Source of the DNA: Saccharothrix violaceirubra | GTDB taxonomy: Bacteria; Actinomycetota; Actinomycetes; Mycobacteriales; Pseudonocardiaceae | Assembly (NCBI RefSeq): GCF_014203755.1 | Contig: NZ_JACHJS010000001.1 | Coordinates: forward strand, 310,001-374,000 | Reading direction: 5' to 3' | Length of the DNA: 64,000 bases | In this document: positions 27,967 through 61,533 of the stretch, in pieces | How the letters are laid out: each line of letters opens with the position of its first letter | Position numbering within the stretch: position 1 is the first letter of the stretch | Translations under genes and position numbers: made by a program | Notes under the pieces: generated by a model | What the model was told of the DNA's origin: nothing | The model's database searches: none | The model's input: the letters and a program-made list of their open reading frames with translations, nothing else

Positions 27967-29571
27967 GTGATCGGCACGGACGACGCCAGCACGGCCCTCG
28001 ACGTGGACCGCGCGGGCGGCACGAGAACCCTGGTCGCCGCCGTACTGGCGGTCGTCGGCGCCGCTCTCACGGCCCTCGGCGGCATGCTCGGCGTGATCGA
28101 CTCCCCGCCCGCGTTCGCCTCCTGGTGGCTGCTCCTCCTCACGGCCCTGCCGACGGTGGCCGTCGTCGCCCGGTTCCGGGGCGACGACCTCGCCGGTGCG
28201 CTGGCCGTCCTGGCCGCGGTCGAGGTCGGTCGGACCCTGGTCGACCTCCAGTTCCTCGTCGACCCGACCATGACCGCCCGGCCCGAGTTGGCCCGCCTCT
28301 CCGCCCTGTCCCCGCCGCCGGTCACGGCCGGGTTCTGGGTGGTGGTCGCCGGGCACGCCTGCGTGATCGCCGCCGGGCTGCTCGTGCTCGGCGCGGTGAC
28401 GACCGAACCCCGCGAGGAGCGGACGCGGTTCGCGCCGCCCGCTTTGGCGGGTGCGGTGGCGGCCGTGGGGCTCGCGATGACGCCGTTCGGTTCCGACGAC
28501 GCCTTCGTCCCGGTGCGCGCCGCGTTGGACGCGCCCGGTGTCGTCCTCGCGGGCGGGCTGCTGCTCGTGGTGCTGGTGCCGGTCATCGGTGTGGTCGCCG
28601 CGTCGTCGGCCCGGCCCGAGGGGCCGTTCGCCGGGTTGGCCGCCGCGCTGGTCGCGCTCGCCCTGCCGCCGCTGGTGTCCGGGTTCGTCGTCGACGGCCT
28701 CCATGTCGGCTTCGCTCCTTTCCTTCTTCTTGTCGCCGCCGCGGTGTTCCTCCTGCCGCAACGCCCGGCCGTCGAGCGCGACCTCGCGTTGCCCGGACCC
28801 CGTCGGCTGCACGTGGCCGCGGCCGTGCTGGGGCTGCTCGCCGCCGCGGGCGCGGTCGTCGGCGCGCTGACCGACCAGCTCGTCCTGCCCGCCGGGCTGC
28901 CGGCCCCGGTCGACTTCGCGTCCCGCCCGCTGTGGCCGGCGGCGGTCCTGGTGGCGACGGGCGCGCTCGTGCTGCTCGGCAACGCCGCCGCGCGTCCCGC
29001 GCTGATCGTGTCGCTGGCGGCGGTGCCGTTGGCCGCCGTGCCCGCGCTCGACGCCGTCGCGTCGGCCACCCGGGTGGCGTCGGTCCAGGCCGGTGCGGGC
29101 GCGGTGTTCGCGGCCCTGTCGGTCGTGGTGGCCGCCGCCGCGGCGGTGGTCGGCGCGGTGGCCGGTGCGGTCGAGCGCGAGGAGGCCGACGCGTCCGTGC
29201 CGCCCGCGCCGTTGCCGTTGCTCGGCCTGGTGCTGATCGGCCTGCTGCTCACGGCCGGCGCGCTGGTCCTGCCGGTCATCGAGGCACCCGGTCTCACGCC
29301 GATCGGCGCGTTGTCGGGGCGGATCGGTTCCTGGGGGCTCCTGGCGGCCTTCGTCGCCGTGGCCGCGGCCGGGCTGGTCGCGCTCAAGGCCCGTCCGGCG
29401 CGGGCTTCCGCGTTGCTCCTCGGTGCCGCCGGGGTGCTCGTCGTCCGGGTCCTGGAGTACCCGCTCACGTCCGGCCGTGCCGAGTCCGCCGCTCCCGGCC
29501 CCGGCTTCTGGCTCGCCCTGGCCGCCGCTGCCGCCTTCCTCGCGTCGTCCGCCGCCACCCGCCGCCGCTGA
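27967..29571 (+). CDS. Multi-pass membrane protein of unknown function
   Basis: About 534 residues, very Ala/Val/Leu-rich, with roughly 12-14 hydrophobic segments (for example TLVAAVLAVVGAALTALGGML, ALVALALPPLVSGFVV, LLGLVLIGLLLTAGALVLPV). No catalytic or transporter signature was recognised. The GTG at 27967 lies 7 nt after TAGCGT, a -10-like hexamer, so the mRNA may be leaderless. No ribosome site is seen. It is inserted between the M23 gene and sucC, which are adjacent in M. tuberculosis. A degenerate 22-nt repeat array begins 23 nt after its stop. Confidence 0.75.
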   Translation: MIGTDDASTALDVDRAGGTRTLVAAVLAVVGAALTALGGMLGVIDSPPAFASWWLLLLTALPTVAVVARFRGDDLAGALAVLAAVEVGRTLVDLQFLVDPTMTARPELARLSALSPPPVTAGFWVVVAGHACVIAAGLLVLGAVTTEPREERTRFAPPALAGAVAAVGLAMTPFGSDDAFVPVRAALDAPGVVLAGGLLLVVLVPVIGVVAASSARPEGPFAGLAAALVALALPPLVSGFVVDGLHVGFAPFLLLVAAAVFLLPQRPAVERDLALPGPRRLHVAAAVLGLLAAAGAVVGALTDQLVLPAGLPAPVDFASRPLWPAAVLVATGALVLLGNAAARPALIVSLAAVPLAAVPALDAVASATRVASVQAGAGAVFAALSVVVAAAAAVVGAVAGAVEREEADASVPPAPLPLLGLVLIGLLLTAGALVLPVIEAPGLTPIGALSGRIGSWGLLAAFVAVAAAGLVALKARPARASALLLGAAGVLVVRVLEYPLTSGRAESAAPGPGFWLALAAAAAFLASSAATRRR

Positions 29572-29593
29572 CCCGCTCTTTCGGGTGGTTCCC

Positions 29594-29685
29594 CGCGCGA
29601 GTCCTCCACTCGGACACCGTGAGTCGCACGCCCGGTCGACGAGTCGCGTCCTGAGGTACCGCGAGGCGTGCTCGGCACACCCGGA
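29594..29685 (+). repeat. 22-nt repeat array A (degenerate)
   Basis: Begins CGCGCGAGTCCTCC 23 nt after the stop of the membrane-protein gene, on the same strand. Units of 20-22 nt start GAGT, GAGT, GAGT and GAGG and share CACTCGGACACC-type ends. It is the most diverged member of the family seen at 37.7, 37.9, 45.4 and 60.8 kb. Confidence 0.65.
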
Positions 29686-36991: not shown

Positions 36992-37072
36992 GTTCGAGTG
37001 AGACAGGTCGCCGGACTTCCCACGGCGGTCCGCGCACAGGGGTGCGCGCGGATTCGTGGGAGGAGGGTTCCG

Positions 37073-38116
37073 GTGCGGGGTTCGACAACGGCGACGGTGG
37101 CCGCGCTCGGGGTAGGCGCGGCCGGCGAGTCGACCTCGGCACCCACCCGTGTCCTGCCGGTTCGCGGGGAACTGGCGGGACTCCTCCCGTGGGGCGGCCT
37201 GCGACGTGGCAGCACGGTGTCGGTTCGCGCGTCGGCATCGTTGCTGCTCACGTTGATCGCCGCGGCGACGGCGGAAGGGTCGTGGGCGGTCGTCGCCGGG
37301 CTGCCGCGGTGTGGGGCACTCGCGGCGGTCGAGGTGGGGGTGGCCGTCCATCGACTCGCTCTCGTGCCCCGGCCGGGTCGGGACCGGGGTGAGGTCGACC
37401 GGACCGTGGCGGCGCTGCTGGACGGGTTCGACATCGTGGCGGTGGCGACGCCGGTGAGTGCCGCGTCGGCCCGCAAGCTGTCGAACCGCGCTCGGGTGCG
37501 CAAGGCGGTCCTGGTCCCTTTCGGTCTGGACTGGCCCGGCGCCGACGTCGAGCTGACCCCTTCTTTCGGCCCGTGGAACGGACTTTCCCCGGACGGCGGC
37601 ACACCTCTGCGCACGCGCACCTTGACCGTGCACGCGACCGGCCGAGGCGCCGCCGCCCGCCCCCGGTCCACCACGTTCCCCCTCTTACTCCGCACGCGAG
37701 TCCTCCACCCGGACACCCTGAAAGTGCCTCGCCCACACAAACGCGCGAGTTATACGTTCAGGCACCACGAAATGTGCACTCGGACACCACGAGTTGTGCG
37801 TTCAGGCACCGCGAATCATGCACTCGGGGCATGCCTGCCTGAAGCCTGTGGCCCGCAAGGAGGGGAACACCTCCGCGTCAGCCCACGGACCCGCGAGGAC
37901 GGGTCCCGGCCGCGACCCCTGGCCAGGACCTTCACTCGCCGGCCGCTGCACCCCGAACGCGCGAGTCCTCCACTCGGGCACCCTGAAATACGCACTCGGG
38001 CAGTGCGAGATGGGGCGGTCCGGGGTTCGGCTTCGCGCGAGTCATGCGTTCGGACACCGCGAGTTGTGCGTTCAGAGCCGCGGATCGCGGCGTTCAGGAA
38101 TCTCTATCGGGTGTGA
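37073..38116 (+). CDS. imuA: ImuA-like RecA-fold mutasome accessory protein with repeat-derived C-terminus
   Basis: First ~200 residues are ImuA'-like: LPVRGELAGLLPWGGLRRGS, SWAVVAGLPRCGALAAVEVG, LDGFDIVAVATPVSA, and ARKLSNRARVRKAVLVPFG. The frame then runs on for about 140 residues through the 22-nt repeat array (translated as cysteine- and arginine-rich tracts such as HHEMCTRTPRVVRSGT) to a stop at 38116. ImuA' proteins usually end near the first part, so the tail is probably repeat DNA read in frame. GTG at 37073 has GGAGGAGGG upstream. The GTG at 36998 next to the LexA box is less likely. Works with ImuB and DnaE2 in SOS mutagenesis. Confidence 0.82.
   Translation: MRGSTTATVAALGVGAAGESTSAPTRVLPVRGELAGLLPWGGLRRGSTVSVRASASLLLTLIAAATAEGSWAVVAGLPRCGALAAVEVGVAVHRLALVPRPGRDRGEVDRTVAALLDGFDIVAVATPVSAASARKLSNRARVRKAVLVPFGLDWPGADVELTPSFGPWNGLSPDGGTPLRTRTLTVHATGRGAAARPRSTTFPLLLRTRVLHPDTLKVPRPHKRASYTFRHHEMCTRTPRVVRSGTANHALGACLPEACGPQGGEHLRVSPRTREDGSRPRPLARTFTRRPLHPERASPPLGHPEIRTRAVRDGAVRGSASRESCVRTPRVVRSEPRIAAFRNLYRV
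37691..37850 (+). repeat. 22-nt repeat array B
   Basis: A first header CGCACGCGAGTCCTCC at 37691 is followed by the main header CGCGCGAGTTATACG at 37743 and at least four consecutive 22-nt units starting GAGTTATACG, GAAATGTGC, GAGTTGTGCG and GAATCATGC. Units share a (G/A)-C-(T/G)-TC-(A/G)-G centre and CACC end. It is the best preserved array and lies at the 3' end of imuA. Confidence 0.85.
37958..38110 (+). repeat. 22-nt repeat arrays C and D
   Basis: Two further arrays between imuA sequence and imuB. Array C (37958-38012) opens CGCGCGAGTCCTCCACTCGG and contains a stem CGCACT-CGGGC-AGTGCG. Array D (38035-38110) opens CGCGCGAGTCATGCG and ends before the imuB start. Both read on the plus strand like array B. 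Confidence 0.75.
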
Positions 38117-38165
38117 ACCTCGATCAGGCGCGTTCCGGCGCGCTTCACGGCTACAGGTGGTGGGT

Positions 38166-39689
38166 GTGCGAACGTTGGTCGTCCGGTGTCCCGACTGGGC
38201 GGTGGTGGCGGCTGCCGCGGAAAGCGGGGTGTCACCGCACGTCCCCGCCGCCGTGATCCGCAACGGCGAGGTGGCGTCCTGTTCCGCCGTGGCCCGCACC
38301 GAAGGGGTCTTCGTCGGCCAACGACGCCGGGCCGCCCAGGGCCGTTGTCCCGAACTCGTCGTCTTCGAGCACGACGGCGAACGCGACGCCCGCGTCTTCG
38401 AACCCGTCGCGATCGCCGTGGAGGAGATCACGCCGGGCATCGAGGTGGTCCGCCCCGGCGTGGTGGCGGTGGCCGCCCAAGGACCCGTCGCCTACTACGG
38501 GTCGGCCGCCGCCGCGGCCGAGCGGATCGTCGACCACGTCGCCGGACGGGCCGGGGTCGAGGCGTCGGTGGGCATGGCCGACGGGGTGTTCGCGGCCACC
38601 CTGGCGGCCCGGCGCGGTCGGCTCGTGGCCGACACCGCCGCCTTCCTGTCCGAATTGGACGTCCGCGAACTCGGCCGCCCCGCGTTGGTGGACCTGTTGC
38701 GGCGCATGGGTTTGCGCACGCTCGGCGCGTTCGCCGCGATCTCCGAACGTCACGTCGCCGGCCGGTTCGGCAAGGACGCCGTGTTCGCGCACCGGCTCGC
38801 CCGGGGCCTGGAGGAACGGCCGCCCTCCCGTCGGACCCCGGCGGTCGACCCGGCTGTCGAACTCGTCCTCGACCCACCGGTCGACCGGGTCGACGCCGCC
38901 GCTTTCGCCGCGCGCACGCTGGCCGAACGCCTGCACACCGGCCTGTCCGCCCGAGGTTTCGCGTGCACCCGGCTGGCGATCGAGGCGACGACCACGACCG
39001 GCGAGCACCGCCGCCGGGTGTGGCGCTGCGCCGACCCGTTGACCGCCCAGGGCATCGCCGACCGGGTGCGGTGGCAGCTCGACGGGTGGCTCACCGGCGC
39101 CGTCCTCACCGGCCCGGTCGAGGTGGTCCGCCTCGACCCCGAGGAGCTGGTCGACGGCGACGCGCTTCAGCTCGGCCTGTGGGGCGGGCAGGGCGAGGCG
39201 GCGGACCGGGCCGCACGGGCGATGGTCCACGTCCAGGGCCTGCTCGGCCCGGACGCCGTGGTCACGCCAGTGCTCGGCGGCGGTCGCGGCCCGGTCGAGC
39301 GGGTCCGTTGGGTGCCGTGGGGCGACGAACGCGTCCCGGCCGACGACCCGACCGCGCCCTGGCCGGGACGGCTGCCCGCGCCGTCCCCCGCGACCGTGTT
39401 CGACCGGCCCGATCCGGTCGCCCTGCTCGACGAGCACGGCGCCGACGTCGTGGTCACCGGCCACGCCGAACTGGTCGCCCGGCCGCACCGGATCGTGCAC
39501 GCTGGACGCGGGCGTCAGGTCGTCGGCTGGGCCGGGCCGTGGCCGGTCGACGAGCGCTGGTGGGACGAGACCGGCGCGGTCCGGGCGGCCCGCCTCCAGG
39601 TGCTCGGCACGGCACCCGACGGTTCGGAGCTGGCCTACCTGCTGATCCGCAGCGGCGGCCGGTGGGCGGTGGAAGGCGTGTACGACTAG
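38166..39689 (+). CDS. imuB: ImuB, catalytically dead Y-family polymerase-like protein
   Basis: About 507 residues. It begins VRTLVVRCPDWAVVAAAAES, where active Y-family polymerases have the catalytic Asp and steric-gate motif; those acidic residues are missing, as in other ImuB. The Y-family body is recognisable: VAYYGSAAAAAERI, GVEASVGMADGVFAATLAA, the helix-hairpin-helix VDLLRRMGLRTLGAFAAISE and the little-finger region. It is the hub that ties DnaE2 to the beta clamp. GTG at 38166 has AGGTGG 5 nt upstream. The stop TAG shares its G with the dnaE2 GTG, so translation is coupled. Confidence 0.92.
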   Translation: MRTLVVRCPDWAVVAAAAESGVSPHVPAAVIRNGEVASCSAVARTEGVFVGQRRRAAQGRCPELVVFEHDGERDARVFEPVAIAVEEITPGIEVVRPGVVAVAAQGPVAYYGSAAAAAERIVDHVAGRAGVEASVGMADGVFAATLAARRGRLVADTAAFLSELDVRELGRPALVDLLRRMGLRTLGAFAAISERHVAGRFGKDAVFAHRLARGLEERPPSRRTPAVDPAVELVLDPPVDRVDAAAFAARTLAERLHTGLSARGFACTRLAIEATTTTGEHRRRVWRCADPLTAQGIADRVRWQLDGWLTGAVLTGPVEVVRLDPEELVDGDALQLGLWGGQGEAADRAARAMVHVQGLLGPDAVVTPVLGGGRGPVERVRWVPWGDERVPADDPTAPWPGRLPAPSPATVFDRPDPVALLDEHGADVVVTGHAELVARPHRIVHAGRGRQVVGWAGPWPVDERWWDETGAVRAARLQVLGTAPDGSELAYLLIRSGGRWAVEGVYD

Positions 39690-44415: not shown

Positions 44416-45270
44416 TCACCGGGCCAGACCTCGTTCCGCCGCCTCGACCGTGTTGGTCAGCAACATGGCGATCGTCATCGGCCCGGCACCGCCGGGGATC
44501 GGCGCGAGGAACCCGGCGACCTCGGCGACGTCCGGGTGCACGTCCCCGACCAGACCCGCCTCGGTGCGCGTGATGCCCACGTCGACCACGGCCGCACCCG
44601 GCTTGACCATGTCGGCCGTGATGAGACCGGGACTGCCCGCCCCGGCGACCACGATGTCCGCCCGGCGTACCTCGGCGGCGAGGTCCTTCGTGCCGGTGTG
44701 GCACAGCGTCACGGTGGCGTTCTCGGAACGGCGGGTGAGCAACAACCCGATCGGGCGCCCGACCGTCACACCACGCCCGACGACGGTGACGTTCGCACCG
44801 GCCAGCGGCACGTCGTAGCGCCGCAGCAGTTCGACCACACCACGCGGGGTGGCCGGCAGCGGGGCTTCGTCACCGAGCACGAGTTTGCCGAGGTTGACCG
44901 GGTGCAGCCCGTCCCCGTCCTTGGCCGGGTCGATGCGCTCCAGGATGGCGTTCGCGTCGAGGTGGCGCGGCAACGGGAGCTGGACGATGTAGGCGGTGCA
45001 GGCCGGGTCCGCGTTCAACTCGTCGATGACGGCTTCGAGCTGGGCCTGCGTCGTGTCGGCGGGTAGATCACGCCGAATGGAGGTGATGCCGACCTTCGCA
45101 CACGCGGCGTGCTTGCCCTTGACGTACGAGTGCGATCCAGGGTCATCCCCCACGAGCACGGTCGCGAGACCGGGCGTCACACCCCGCTCCACCAGCGCGG
45201 CAACCCGCGCACGCAGACCGTCGAAGATCGAGTCCCGCGTAGCCCTGCCGTTGAGGATCGTCGCCGTCAC
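44416..45270 (-). CDS. folD: Methylene-THF dehydrogenase/cyclohydrolase FolD
   Basis: 284 residues. Interconverts methylene- and 10-formyl-THF with NADP+, supplying formyl groups to PurN/PurH. Catalytic Tyr49 and Lys53 are in [34 protein letters not shown] is the signature, NADP binding is [18 protein letters not shown], and [13 protein letters not shown] is the C-terminal signature. ATG start [18 protein letters not shown]3017 follows at once. A gene-free stretch with repeat array E lies upstream. Confidence 0.96.
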
Positions 45271-45394
45271 ACCCCCATCTTGTCACCCCGCCCCAAACCA
45301 CCGCGCGACGACGTAGTCAACGTCAAGCCCCCAAAAGCCCGACAACCGCGGAACACGACACACCCGCACCCACCACCCCGGGGATCCAAGCCCC

Positions 45395-45516
45395 GAACGC
45401 ACGACGCCCAACTTTCGGCGCCCCAACGCACACCTCACGATTCCACCGCACCCCGACCGCACAACTCACGGTGCCTGAACGCACAACTCGTGGTGCCTGG
45501 ACGTATAACTCGCGCG
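45395..45516 (-). repeat. 22-nt repeat array E
   Basis: On the minus strand it opens CGCGCGAGTTATACGTCC 27 nt after the stop of the MFS gene. Units starting GAGTTATACG, GAGTTGTGCG, GAGTTGTGCG, GAATCGTGAGG and GAAAGTTGGG follow, the later ones drifting in length. Nearly identical to arrays B and F over the first 44 nt. Confidence 0.85.
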
Positions 45517-45543
45517 AACCACGAGCCCGAAGAAGACCCGCGA

Positions 45544-46764
45544 TCAGCGGGGCACGTGGACCGCCGAAGCGGCCACCGTCCCGAGAAGAGCCAACCCGCC
45601 CGCCGCGGCAGCCGCCGCGGCCGGACCGGGCCCGTCGATCAACCGCCCGATCCACGGCAGCACCAACGCCGGCCCGGCCGTCGTGAACGTCGCCATCCAC
45701 CCGAAAGCCTCGGCCTTGCGCCCCTCCGGAGCCAACGCCCCGATCCGACTGTTGTTGGCCGCGATGGTCGGCGCGATCGTCAACCCGCCGATCACCAGCA
45801 CCACCCCGACCGACCAGGGCGACAACCCGACGACCGGCGGCAACACCGGCACCAGCGCCAACAACCCCAACGACATGGCGAACATCCGCCGCGCGAACCG
45901 CATGGGCCCCGTCCACCCGCCCGTGACCAGCCCGCCCACCACCGACCCGACACCCCACACCGCCGCCAGCGCACCGGCCAACGCGGGCACCCCGCCGTCC
46001 CGCGCCAAGGCGACGATCACCATGTCGATCGACACCAGCGACGCCACGATCGCCCCGGCCGCCAGGAACGACAACGCCAGCGACCGGTCCCGGAGCAGCG
46101 CCGGACCTCCGTGCGCGCGCTCGTGCGGCACGGGTCGGTCGATCCCGGCCCGGCGTAAAGCACGCAGGAACCCGAGCGCCCCCACCACGGCGGTCACCCC
46201 CGCGCCCCACAACGCGATCTCCGGACTCGCCACGGCGACCACGGCCGCCGCCGCTGCCGGACCGATCACGTAGGTCAACTCCTGCGTCGAAGCCTCCACC
46301 GTGAACACGGCGTTCAACGTCGGACCGGACGCCAGCCGCTGGAACCCCGCCCGGCTGAGCTGCGTGACCGGCGGCGTCGACACGCCGACCAGGAACGCGA
46401 CCACCACCGCCACCGGCCACGCCGACGCGGGCAGCAGCACCGGCACCAGGCCCAGCGCGGTGATCCCCACGGCGTAACCCGACACCGTCGCGAGCAGCAG
46501 GGGCGTCGCCGGCTTCCGGTCCGCTGCGCGACCCCGCAGCGGGCTCGCCACGCCCATGCCCAAGGTCATCGCACCGCCGACCACGCCCGCCAGCGCGTAC
46601 GAATCCGTCCACCCCACTACCAGGAACGCCACCGCCAAGGGCACTGTCGGCAGGTGCAACCGCCCGGCGAGCGCCCAGCACAGCAGGGCGGTCAGGCCGG
46701 GGATCGCGGCGAGTTCCCGGTAGGGACGGAGCACGGTGACCACTGTGCCCGAGGGGTCCGACAA
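45544..46764 (-). CDS. MFS transporter
   Basis: About 406 residues, 12 predicted membrane segments in two halves (from ELAAIPGLTALLCWALAGRL; loop motif SPLRGRAADRKPATPLLL; second half from LSFLAAGAIVASLVSIDMVI). Like small actinomycete efflux MFS proteins; the substrate is unknown. The start is uncertain: TTG at 46764 or GTG codons at 46743/46734, none with a clear ribosome site. It is divergent from the YbaB-like gene. Repeat array E begins just after its stop. Confidence 0.85.
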   Translation of the reverse strand: MSDPSGTVVTVLRPYRELAAIPGLTALLCWALAGRLHLPTVPLAVAFLVVGWTDSYALAGVVGGAMTLGMGVASPLRGRAADRKPATPLLLATVSGYAVGITALGLVPVLLPASAWPVAVVVAFLVGVSTPPVTQLSRAGFQRLASGPTLNAVFTVEASTQELTYVIGPAAAAAVVAVASPEIALWGAGVTAVVGALGFLRALRRAGIDRPVPHERAHGGPALLRDRSLALSFLAAGAIVASLVSIDMVIVALARDGGVPALAGALAAVWGVGSVVGGLVTGGWTGPMRFARRMFAMSLGLLALVPVLPPVVGLSPWSVGVVLVIGGLTIAPTIAANNSRIGALAPEGRKAEAFGWMATFTTAGPALVLPWIGRLIDGPGPAAAAAAAGGLALLGTVAASAVHVPR

Positions 46765-47672: not shown

Positions 47673-50600
47673 GTGGGCATCGAGATCCCGAGCGAGGTCA
47701 CGTGGCTCTTCCCGATCGTGGTCGGGCAGAGCTGGCCGGAGGGCGACGAGACGGCGCTGAGGCGCATGGCCGATGCCTATCGCACCGCCGCACAGGGCGT
47801 GAAGTCCGTGCTCGACGAGGCGAACGGCGCCGCGTCGACCGTGATGTCGAGCCAGACCGGTGAAGCGGTCAAGGCGTTCGAGGGGTACTGGAAGAAGTTC
47901 GCCGACGGCGACGACTCGTACCTGCCGAAGTTGCAGAAGATCTGCGAGCAGCTCGCGGAGAGTTGCGACAACACGGCGTTGGAGGTCGAGTACACCAAGC
48001 TGTCGATCATCGCGTCGCTGATCGCGCTGGCGATCGAGATCGCGGCGCTGGTGGCGGCGGCGTTCGGCACGTTCGGCGCGTCCACCGCCGGCATCCCGAT
48101 CGCGCAGCAGGCGACCAGGCTGATCGTGCAGTTCACGTTCCGGCAGCTGATCATCGCGATCCTGAAGGAGGTCGCGATCTCGGTCGGCATCGACGCGGCC
48201 ATCCAGGGCATCCAGATGCTGTCCGGCGAGCGCAAGAACTGGGACTGGGGCAAGACCGGCGAGGCGGCCGTGTCCGGCGCGGTGTCGGGTCTGGTCGGCG
48301 GCGTGTCGGGCGGCCTGAAGTTCCAGGGCGGCGGCCTGGCCGGGCAGATGGCCGTCGGTGCGACGCGCGGTGCCGTGGAAGGTGCCGTGTCGACGGTCGG
48401 CACGGCGGCCGTCATGGGCCAGGACATCAGCGCCAAGGACGTGCTGCTGGGTGCGACGTCCGGTGCGGTGTCCGGTGGCATCGGCGGTGCCAAGGACGGC
48501 ATCACGGTCGAGGCGCCGCACGTGACGCCCGGCGGTCCGGGCGGCGGACCCCCCGACCTGACGCCACCCGCCGGCGGCCCGCCGACCGGTGGTCCCCCGG
48601 GGGCCGCTCCCACCGGCGGCCCGACGGGATCGGGTCCCACCGGAACCGGCCCGACCGGAACCGGCCCGACGGGAGCGGGTCCGACCGGCTCCGCTCCGAC
48701 CGGAGCCGGGCCGGGTGGCGGTCCGTCCGGTCCGACCGTGAACCGCGACGGCCTGAACCGGCCGCGTGGCACGGACACCACCACTGCCTCGTCGGTGGCG
48801 GCTCCGCCCGCTCCCGGCCCGTCGGTGTCGATGCCGCCCCCGGTCGGCGGCGACCACTCCTCCGGTGGCCCGACGTCCTCGCCGGGAGGATTCACCGGAG
48901 CCCCGACCTCGAACGGCCCGCTGCCGACCTCGACGACCCCGTCGTCGGGCGGTTCGTCGATCGGCAACCGCCTGGGCGCACCGACGACCGGGGGTCCGAC
49001 GCCCGGTGGGCCGACCGCGACGCCGGGGCACGGTGGCACCTCGCCGGGAACCCCCGCCGCGGGCAGGACTCCCACCGCCACACCGGGTTTCGGCCCGGGA
49101 TCGTCCGGAAGCCACCCGACACCGGGTGCGTCCGGCGGCCACGGCACCACTTCGGGCACGGGCGCCACGCACTCGACACCGGGGTCGACCGGCGCGACCC
49201 CCGGCGGCCACCCGACTCCGGGCGGCGCGGGCACGACGCCGGGCCACGGCTCGACTCCGGGCACAGGTTCGTTGCCCGGCAACGGTTCCACGCCCGGTAC
49301 GTCCGCTCCCGGTGGTCCGACGTCGGGCACCGGCCCGAACCCCGGTAGCGGGGCGACTCCCACCGCCGGTTCGACGCCGGGTGCCCACTCGACTCCCGGT
49401 TCCGGACTTCCCGGTTCCGGCGTGCCGGGCGCCGGCCCGGCCGGGTCGGGTCTGCCGGGCTCAGGCCCGGTGGGTTCCGGTGCGCCCGGTTCGGGCCCGA
49501 TCGGTTCCGGCGTGCCGGGTGCGGGCCCGGCCGGCTCGGGTCTTCCTGGTTCCGGCCCGGTGGGTTCCGGTCTGCCGGGTGCCGGTTCGGCGGGTTCGGG
49601 TCTTCCTGGTTCCGGCCCCGTCGGGTCGGGTGTGCCGGGTTCGGGTCCGGTCGGGTCCGGTCTTCCTGGTTCGGGTCCGGTCGGTTCAGGTGTGCCCGGT
49701 TCCGGTCCGGTGGGTTCCGGCTTGCCTGGCACCGGTCCCGTCGGGTCGGGCCTTCCGGGGACCGGTCCGGTCGGTTCGGGTGTGCCGGGTTCGGGTCCGG
49801 TCGGGTCGGGTGTGCCGGGGGTCGGTCCGACGGGCTCGGGTCTGCCCGGCCCTGGTCCGGTCGGTCCGGGGGCCGGGCCGCACGGTGGTGGTCCGGCTCC
49901 GCACCTGTCCGGTGGTGCTCCGGGCGCTGGGTCGCACTCGGGTCCCGCTTCGGGGACCGGTCCCATGGGTGGCGGTGGAGGGTTCGCGCCGCCTCCCGGT
50001 GGTGGTGCACCCGGTGGTGGTGGCGGGGGACTCGGCGGGGGCCGTCCGTCGGCGCCCACGGCGAGCGGCTACTTCTCGGACGACCACTCGTCCGGTGTGC
50101 GCGGGACCGACGCGGTGAGCGCCAGTTCCGTGACCGGTGCGCCGGTCGAGGCCTACGCGAATCCGTCGTACCAGCCGACGCCCGACCAGCGGTCGGCGAT
50201 CCCGCAGCAGCCGACGGGTTTCGGTCCCCAGCAGGGGTTCGGCCCGCAGCAGGGCTACACGCCGCCGCCCGGTTCGTCCGCACCCGCCCACCAGGCCCCG
50301 CCCGGGGGCCAACCGCCCCGCCCGGACGCGGCACCGCGTCCGACGAGGCCCGACGCCCCCTTCGCCCGCGGCCCCGAAGCCTTGGCCCGGCCCGACGCAC
50401 CGCGTCCCTCCGACGGCCGCCCGACGGACACCCGTCCCGGCTCGCCCGCCGGACGCGGCCCCGACGCACCGGCCCCACGCGGCTCGGAACCACGCGGCTC
50501 GGAACCACGCTGGGAGGCACCCGGCGGCCGTGGCACGGAGTCCCCGGCCTCGCGCGGCGCCGAGCCACGCTGGGAACCACCCGCCGCTCGCGGCACGGAG

Positions 50601-60810: not shown

Positions 60811-60879
60811 CATGCCCGAACGCACATTTCGCGGTGCCTGAACGCACAACTCGCGGTGTCTGAACGTATAACTCGCGCG
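60811..60879 (-). repeat. 22-nt repeat array F
   Basis: On the minus strand it opens CGCGCGAGTTATACGTTC 33 nt after the stop of the pentapeptide gene. Three 22-nt units follow (GAGTTATACG, GAGTTGTGCG, GAAATGTGCG), each with a CACC-type end. It is the shortest and cleanest array. Confidence 0.85.
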
Positions 60880-60912
60880 TTGGCGAGTGCGCGGTGGCGA
60901 CCGCGAGAAGAC

Positions 60913-61533
60913 TCAACCGACCTGGAGACCGTGCGCGGCGGCGAACGCCACCGCCGTGTCCAGATCCACCCGGGCCCCCGCCAGATCCGCCCCGATCAAC
61001 GTCCGCGCGTCCAGCCGCGCCCCCCGCAGATCCGCCCCCTTCAGGTTCGTCTCCAGCAATCGCGCCCCCGTCAACTCCGCCCCCGACAGATTCGCCCCCG
61101 ACAGATCGGCTCCGGCCAGGTTGGCCTCCCGCAACCGCGCACCCCGGAGATCGATCCCGGGCAGCCGCGCACCGGTCCACCCCACCAGGGTGAGATCGGT
61201 CTCCTCGAACGTGACAGGCCGCATCCCGCACTCCACGAAGACCGACCCCAACAACGTGCACGACGTGAACGACGCCGAGGACAGCACCGCCCGCTCGAAC
61301 CGGCACGAGCGGAACGCCGACGTCCGGTGCGCCGACTCACCCAGATCGGCCCGGTCGAAGACGCACTCGGTGAACGTGCACCCCACCGTCACCAGCCCAC
61401 GCAGGTCCGCATCGGAGAAATCACACCGCACGAACGAGCGCCCCTCCCACTCCTGCCCGTACAGGACCGCGTCCGTGTAGTCCTCGTCGTACTCGGCGTC
61501 GTCGCGTCCCTCACCGATGATGTCCACTGTCAC
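60913..61533 (-). CDS. Pentapeptide-repeat protein
   Basis: 206 residues. After an acidic N-terminus (DDAEYDEDYTDAVLYG) the pentapeptide pattern A(D/N)LXX runs through most of the chain: DFSDADLRGL, FDRADLGESA, ANLAGADLSGANLSGAELTG, TNLKGADLRGARL. This predicts a right-handed quadrilateral beta-helix. Family members such as MfpA mimic DNA and protect gyrase, but most have unknown roles. GTG start. It is divergent from mdh; array F follows its stop. Confidence 0.9.
   Translation of the reverse strand: MTVDIIGEGRDDAEYDEDYTDAVLYGQEWEGRSFVRCDFSDADLRGLVTVGCTFTECVFDRADLGESAHRTSAFRSCRFERAVLSSASFTSCTLLGSVFVECGMRPVTFEETDLTLVGWTGARLPGIDLRGARLREANLAGADLSGANLSGAELTGARLLETNLKGADLRGARLDARTLIGADLAGARVDLDTAVAFAAAHGLQVG

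Follow-up and report, generated by a model that had tools for sequence, protein, structure and literature searches.

Polar 22-nt repeat arrays anchored at stop codons in Saccharothrix violaceirubra and other Pseudonocardiaceae

Five places in the 64,000-nt stretch of the Saccharothrix violaceirubra genome analysed here (the window) carry the unit of a short tandem repeat (Table 1). All five had been listed in an initial annotation made from the sequence, and the unit is present at each as described there. Two of the arrays separate imuA′ from an imuB-like gene (36998-39689), with a dnaE2-like polymerase gene downstream. The open reading frame of imuA′ (36998-38116) has no stop before the array at 37691, which lies about 45-50 nt 3′ of the end of the ImuA′ domain. 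ImuA′ has no match in viral contigs and 15 distant records in plasmids, where the one homologue whose end was inspected extends further. The genes preceding the other three arrays are unrelated, as had been stated (no Pfam hit, MFS_1 and Pentapeptide), and the reported stop-to-array offsets of 23, 27 and 33 nt are correct, becoming 24, 29 and 35 nt when measured to the unit start. At the MFS array site, the end of the MFS homologue is visible in the fetched locus of 20 of 24 congeners. All 20 have, separating the MFS gene from folD, an extra gene of about 900 bp that is missing here (window 44416-46743), with the array near the junction, and none of the 20 has an array between the MFS homologue and folD (three show single core-like matches inside called genes). 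At 49412-49877 the window also contains a long tandem repeat, whose periods are 30, 90 and 120 nt.

Table 1. Repeat arrays of the window with their neighbouring genes and predicted hairpins.
Feature	Position	Strand	Remark
Single B-type header unit	29594..29618	+	24 nt past stop of gene 27967-29571
Predicted hairpin, stop to array	29572..29595	+	-7.6 kcal/mol, z -1.7, weak
ImuA′ reading frame	36998..37690	+	NF058630, E 2.8e-39; domain end ~37645; no stop before array
Array: B header, degenerate spacer, four A-type units at 22 nt (last weak)	37691..37832	+	
Second array: B header and second B unit, spacer, two A-type units	37958..38080	+	precedes ImuB-like gene 38253-39689
Array of A-type units, 3′ of MFS gene	45417..45516	-	
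Terminator-like predicted hairpin, stop to array	45515..45543	-	-12.0 kcal/mol, z -3.6
Gene before array, MFS_1	45544..46743	-	
Array, three A-type units, 3′ of pentapeptide gene	60811..60879	-	
Predicted hairpin, stop to array	60878..60912	-	-8.7 kcal/mol, z -1.3, weak
Gene before array, pentapeptide repeats	60913..61527	-	

Within the window the unit pattern has 14 matches where 0.32 are expected, a number reached in none of 100 shuffles, and the genome-wide count is the fairer test because the window pattern was derived from these same arrays. Across the 7.35-Mb genome, 448 + 423 unit matches at up to three mismatches (871 in all) stand against 3 + 5 (8 in all) for the reversed control. A chance origin is rejected by the genome-wide counts, the window shuffles and the reversed-DNA control together. 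Our sample comprises the window and 60 evenly spaced 20-kb stretches (1.264 Mb), in which scoring with a position matrix yields 200 units of at least 11 bits, against a single one in reversed DNA. The sample holds 71 arrays of 1-8 units each, mostly 1-6, and 15 of the 71 are single units, some of which surely arose by chance. The 22-nt step first read from the window holds across the sample, with 115 of 129 neighbouring units exactly one unit apart; this spacing, with no unique spacers, leads us to reject a CRISPR array. The period is not divisible by three.

By eye, the arrays are built of spacer-linked modules with recognisable header types. What had been proposed as a fixed header for the family is, on the same reading, a pair of unit types, CCTCC and TTATAC, each heading its own module. 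The A unit reads CGCGAGTTATRCGTTCRGACACC and is followed by GCGAGTTGTGCGTTCAGGCACC units; the B unit reads CGCGAGTCCTCCACTCGGACACC, after which there usually comes a CTGAAA- or CCGAAA- unit together with a short CACC/GGGTG stem. B commonly stands before A, with exceptions at L063 and L080. Unit letters differ between species, and the conserved core common to them is GAGTYNNNCRYTC. Rfam gives no match in the window at gathering score, and a search for plasmid, phage or viral carriage of the repeat gave no match.

We called genes with a purpose-written codon-based caller and did not take them from the annotation. Of the arrays of the sample, 26 lie in convergent gaps, 21 in co-directional gaps on the same strand and 10 in co-directional gaps on the opposite strand, the remainder being in divergent gaps (6), inside called genes (4) or at stretch ends (4), whereas the gaps longer than 60 nt that were available number 78 convergent, 305 co-directional and 171 divergent (chi-square p = 4e-8). 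In the loci of relatives, 53 of 89 arrays are in convergent gaps. Among the 49 arrays with an upstream gene on the same strand, 5 overlap the end of the gene, 22 begin 0-5 nt past the stop, another 12 at 11-66 nt, and 10 lie further away, some distances above 100 nt probably reflecting missed genes (as at imuA′) because the gene calls are our own. Uniform placement, simulated for 47 arrays, gives an expected 3.6 starts within 5 nt of the stop codon and a maximum of at most 11 in 5000 runs, against the 21 observed. The family is therefore enriched just past stop codons, and its initial description as a non-coding, spacer-free family that follows genes, in most cases on their strand, is borne out. 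The header lies close to its own stop, and the tail stands further from the facing stop, at scattered distances (22 arrays, p = 0.001). The stretch between stop and array folds with z of -3 or lower in 6 of the 11 arrays at 12-120 nt; such hairpins are not special to arrays, because array-free ends of the same length are often equally strong (10th percentile -30 at 52 nt and -37 at 66 nt in our genome).

The junction between stop codon and array is itself conserved. In relatives, CC directly follows the stop in 58 of 64 array ends versus 60 of 263 array-free ends at the same loci (p = 3e-24), counted only for the 64 of 74 array ends that lie at 2-9 nt and have room for two bases. The stop ends in A in 69 of the 74 array ends versus 197 of the 263 others: TAA accounts for 16 of 74 versus 16 of 263, TAG for 5 of 74 versus 66 of 263, and TGA is unchanged (53 of 74 versus 181 of 263), all these junction counts being partly dependent because orthologous array ends recur among related species. 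The genome of S. violaceirubra shows a weaker effect than its relatives, with CC past the stop in 13 of 22 array ends versus 122 of 523 others. A shift from TAG to TAA at constant TGA is what would be expected of an array that brings A-CC with it, and selection on the context would look identical. Away from stops, TRACC stands upstream in 4 of 42 arrays (the count took in 63 of the 71 arrays, weak single units and stretch edges being left out), and since ACC is rare outside stop-adjacent arrays, it may reflect selection on the context and not a target of insertion.

Three arrays begin 24 nt upstream of the stop triplet, and here the B header is read in frame to its own TGA, which gives the proteins the array-coded ends RESSTQAP, RESSTRTP and RESSARTP. 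Most aligned homologues of the three (named CoaE, Gfo/Idh/MocA and ROK proteins, mainly from Saccharothrix and Actinosynnema; 29 picked out of the 357 others listed) end within about 8 residues of that point, and one aligned homologue extends about 18 residues beyond it. We count these array-coded C-termini, together with array ends that are lineage-specific, in favour of insertion into gene ends that may still be ongoing.

At up to three mismatches to the S. violaceirubra unit, matches number 11-125 in 14 of 24 congeners and 0-2 in the other 10, the genome itself having 690. Outside the genus, 7 of 34 genomes from other genera of the family have 11-173 matches, and 40 genomes taken from other families of the order each stay at two or fewer at the same threshold. 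A two-unit pattern in the S. violaceirubra letters has no match in a set of 84,980 species, from which the own or very near genomes may be absent. A looser core pattern returns at least 120 stretches from that set; the 80 listed all come from Saccharothrix, Umezawaea, Amycolatopsis, Actinophytocola, Lentzea, Kibdelosporangium, Herbihabitans and Pseudonocardia, all of which we take to be Pseudonocardiaceae. Related arrays with species-specific letters thus occur in at least eight genera. The ten array-poor congeners have no such array in the stretches sampled (two each of eight, one each of two), for which alone diverged arrays are excluded, and the only repeats there are three unrelated ones of 21 or 23 nt. 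On a tree of folD, the 14 array-bearing congeners form one clade (85/95) and S. violaceirubra falls among array-poor species (97/93), so that the array label changes at least three times on this single-gene tree. By eye, unrelated local tandem repeats occupy the same gaps in three array-poor relatives (L343, L336 and L342 in G006, G009 and G017, respectively), and the one in G017 consists of copies of the facing gene's own end.

We then compared the addresses of arrays between species, using four regions of S. violaceirubra and six array-bearing congeners. An array is present at 14 of 59 orthologues of ends that carry one in S. violaceirubra versus 4 of 242 orthologues of ends that do not, a difference whose p value of 5e-8 overstates address sharing because 11 of the 14 stem from one neighbouring gene pair. 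Three of ten own array ends are common to congeners, namely this pair (6 of 6 and 5 of 5 orthologues) and a third end (2 of 6); at a fourth, a single congener carries an array, 133 nt off, and the remaining six have none in any of the six congeners. At the L042 15914-16363 end, arrays stand behind the same stop in all six congeners, 2-18 nt off, each with species-specific letters, which we count in favour of homogenisation; in six array-poor congeners arrays are found at none of 73 orthologous ends of the L042 region. Nearby, at L042 16463-17371, a gene is inverted relative to the six array-bearing congeners and lies between two inward-facing arrays, as if these were inverted repeats; its product gives an MTES_1575 nuclease-like hit that is weak and falls short of the curated cut-off. 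Across genera, where 14 of 117 genes have an orthologue in the sample, 4 of the 14 orthologues of array genes bear an array of their own versus 39 of 1091 genes in general, and these include the L042 pair. One apparent empty site was seen, measuring 36 nt in G006 and 144 nt in S. violaceirubra. A target-site duplication could be read at none of four sites, two being without paired flanks and two too diverged.

We regard the arrays as probably small non-autonomous dispersed repeats that resemble REP and BOX elements, are non-palindromic, polar and anchored at stop codons, and are copied and homogenised by a putative trans-acting factor. This reading starts from the observed placement, polarity, A-CC junction, species-specific letters and turnover. 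The core is most simply explained as letters recognised by a protein, because there is no clear covariation within units (no clear compensatory change among 743 distinct units) and facing arms are no better matched. The putative factor would recognise the core through two patches of contact, spaced by about one helical turn and recurring every two turns, and would copy modules to new gene ends while homogenising existing ones; its loss would let the arrays disappear. More tentatively, placement at stop codons may stem from the copying step itself, beyond what selection tolerates. A stricter version, in which insertion is directed to the in-frame stop and joined at TR^ACC, turning TAG into TAA, with end-finding coupled to translation or to the transcript, strikes us as doubtful, and to our knowledge such insertion would be unlike any known bacterial element.

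A possible, though on balance unlikely, alternative is that the arrays are functional 3′ elements under selection, bound by protein as DNA or RNA behind the last ribosome so as to end or insulate transcription, chiefly between convergent genes, with stop adjacency and the A-CC context themselves selected. The prevalence of the gene's strand, the header's nearness to its own stop, the conserved junction and the one address pair kept across species despite changing letters all speak for such elements. Against them, only 39 of 1091 sampled genes carry an array, ten congeners do with 0-2 matches, and six of ten addresses are lineage-specific. The array genes are moreover functionally mixed (37 of 39 scanned), with no family represented more than twice among the families listed (25 of 60). 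The strong folds that precede 6 of 11 arrays indicate that a terminator may pre-exist, a weak argument given that array-free ends fold alike. A terminator or insulator function is possible, and for copied repeats any such role would be a by-product or co-option.

It is very unlikely that the arrays act in general as hairpin elements, in which facing arrays would fold into long hairpins of RNA or into cruciforms and serve as bidirectional terminators, and the data largely refute this as a general cause. Within a species, the match between facing arms (0.596) does not exceed that with arms drawn from other loci (0.598; 34 pairs), unit numbers are equal in 13 of 31 pairs against 11.2 expected, and about 170 of 233 arrays have no facing partner within 150 nt. 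This outweighs the 31 inward-facing pairs among the 233 arrays, with predicted folds of -68 to -192 kcal/mol, the palindrome at L044 18609-18679, whose arms of about 35 bp are two facing arrays filling the gap between convergent stops, and the better matching of partner arms in 5 of 5 G021 pairs and 2 of 2 pairs of Saccharothrix sp. NRRL B-16314. Passive satellites, arising by slippage duplication in unconstrained 3′ DNA with no dedicated factor, are highly improbable: array-poor relatives do have unrelated tandem repeats, recognised by eye, in the same gaps, but slippage cannot give identical letters at hundreds of loci, nor the A-CC junction. That these are REP elements moved by a RAYT (Y1) transposase is barely credible. 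The genomic niche is alike, with 3′ ends, convergent or co-directional gaps and a stop sometimes supplied (PMC3733652, as excerpted), but the units lack a GT(A/G)G head and show no palindrome that the data support. The palindrome test yields only a GAGT/RYTC half-match, with pairing at or below within-species independence except in one pair (0.71 versus 0.68). Y1_Tnp is missing from 11 of the 15 genomes of the genus that bear arrays, S. violaceirubra having one copy, and a reverse transcriptase is likewise missing from 11 of these 15 genomes, S. violaceirubra included. Neither enzyme tracks the arrays, and neither is thus a candidate for the putative trans-acting factor, which counts against our preferred reading.

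Among known systems, REP/BIME elements come close in the available portions of the papers, which describe hundreds of short extragenic copies with species-specific letters, often less than 20 bp from 3′ ends, in convergent or co-directional gaps (PMC2817692, PMC3733652); REP families can contribute TAG as a stop codon (PMC3733652). REPs, however, are palindromes tagged by GT(A/G)G or CGTC, and a cognate Y1 transposase accompanies those linked to RAYTs (PMC2817692, PMC3733652), whereas the arrays consist of non-palindromic, polar direct tandem units and have no consistent Y1 gene. Streptococcal BOX elements, in the excerpts of PMC3049150, pair end modules, to which the spacer-linked modules read by eye may be comparable, with a variable tandem stretch, are overrepresented in convergent gaps and provide the stop codon of some genes; the arrays differ in sequence, in their 22-nt period and in a conserved junction that touches the stop codon. 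The MIRUs of mycobacteria are also actinobacterial, short, tandem, apparently mobile and linked to a codon boundary, yet they are said to insert at start codons and to carry a coupled ORF (PMC12548453, PMC2734929), whereas our arrays follow stops in no fixed frame. The TAACTGA repeats of Beggiatoaceae resemble the arrays in forming many short direct-repeat sets with no known factor and differ in a 7-nt unit that lies mostly just upstream of start codons, as far as the excerpt of PMC4679880 goes. The remark that no such family had been described holds for the literature and database searches made, with most subscription journals outside the scope of the former, whereas the category is not new: the gene-end niche is already known, because REP and BOX repeats occupy such 3′-end and convergent sites. 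Those searches listed no description of non-palindromic polar 22-nt arrays, of an A-CC junction at the stop or of species dialects.

The arrays add a large repeat class to the Pseudonocardiaceae, a family known for antibiotic producers, with an address sharper than that of REP or BOX elements, namely a stop codon plus CC. Common addresses with changing letters allow concerted evolution to be measured in a dispersed bacterial repeat, and the split of one genus into array-bearing (at least 11 matches) and array-poor (0-2) species offers a direct means of searching for a controlling gene. If the stop codon is truly the target, the question becomes how a mobile element locates the end of a reading frame. 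On the 10.9-Mb contig G021:C1, whose first gene is dnaA-like by eye, matches are concentrated in the origin half, with about 11 of the roughly 100 listed (125 in total) in the far half.
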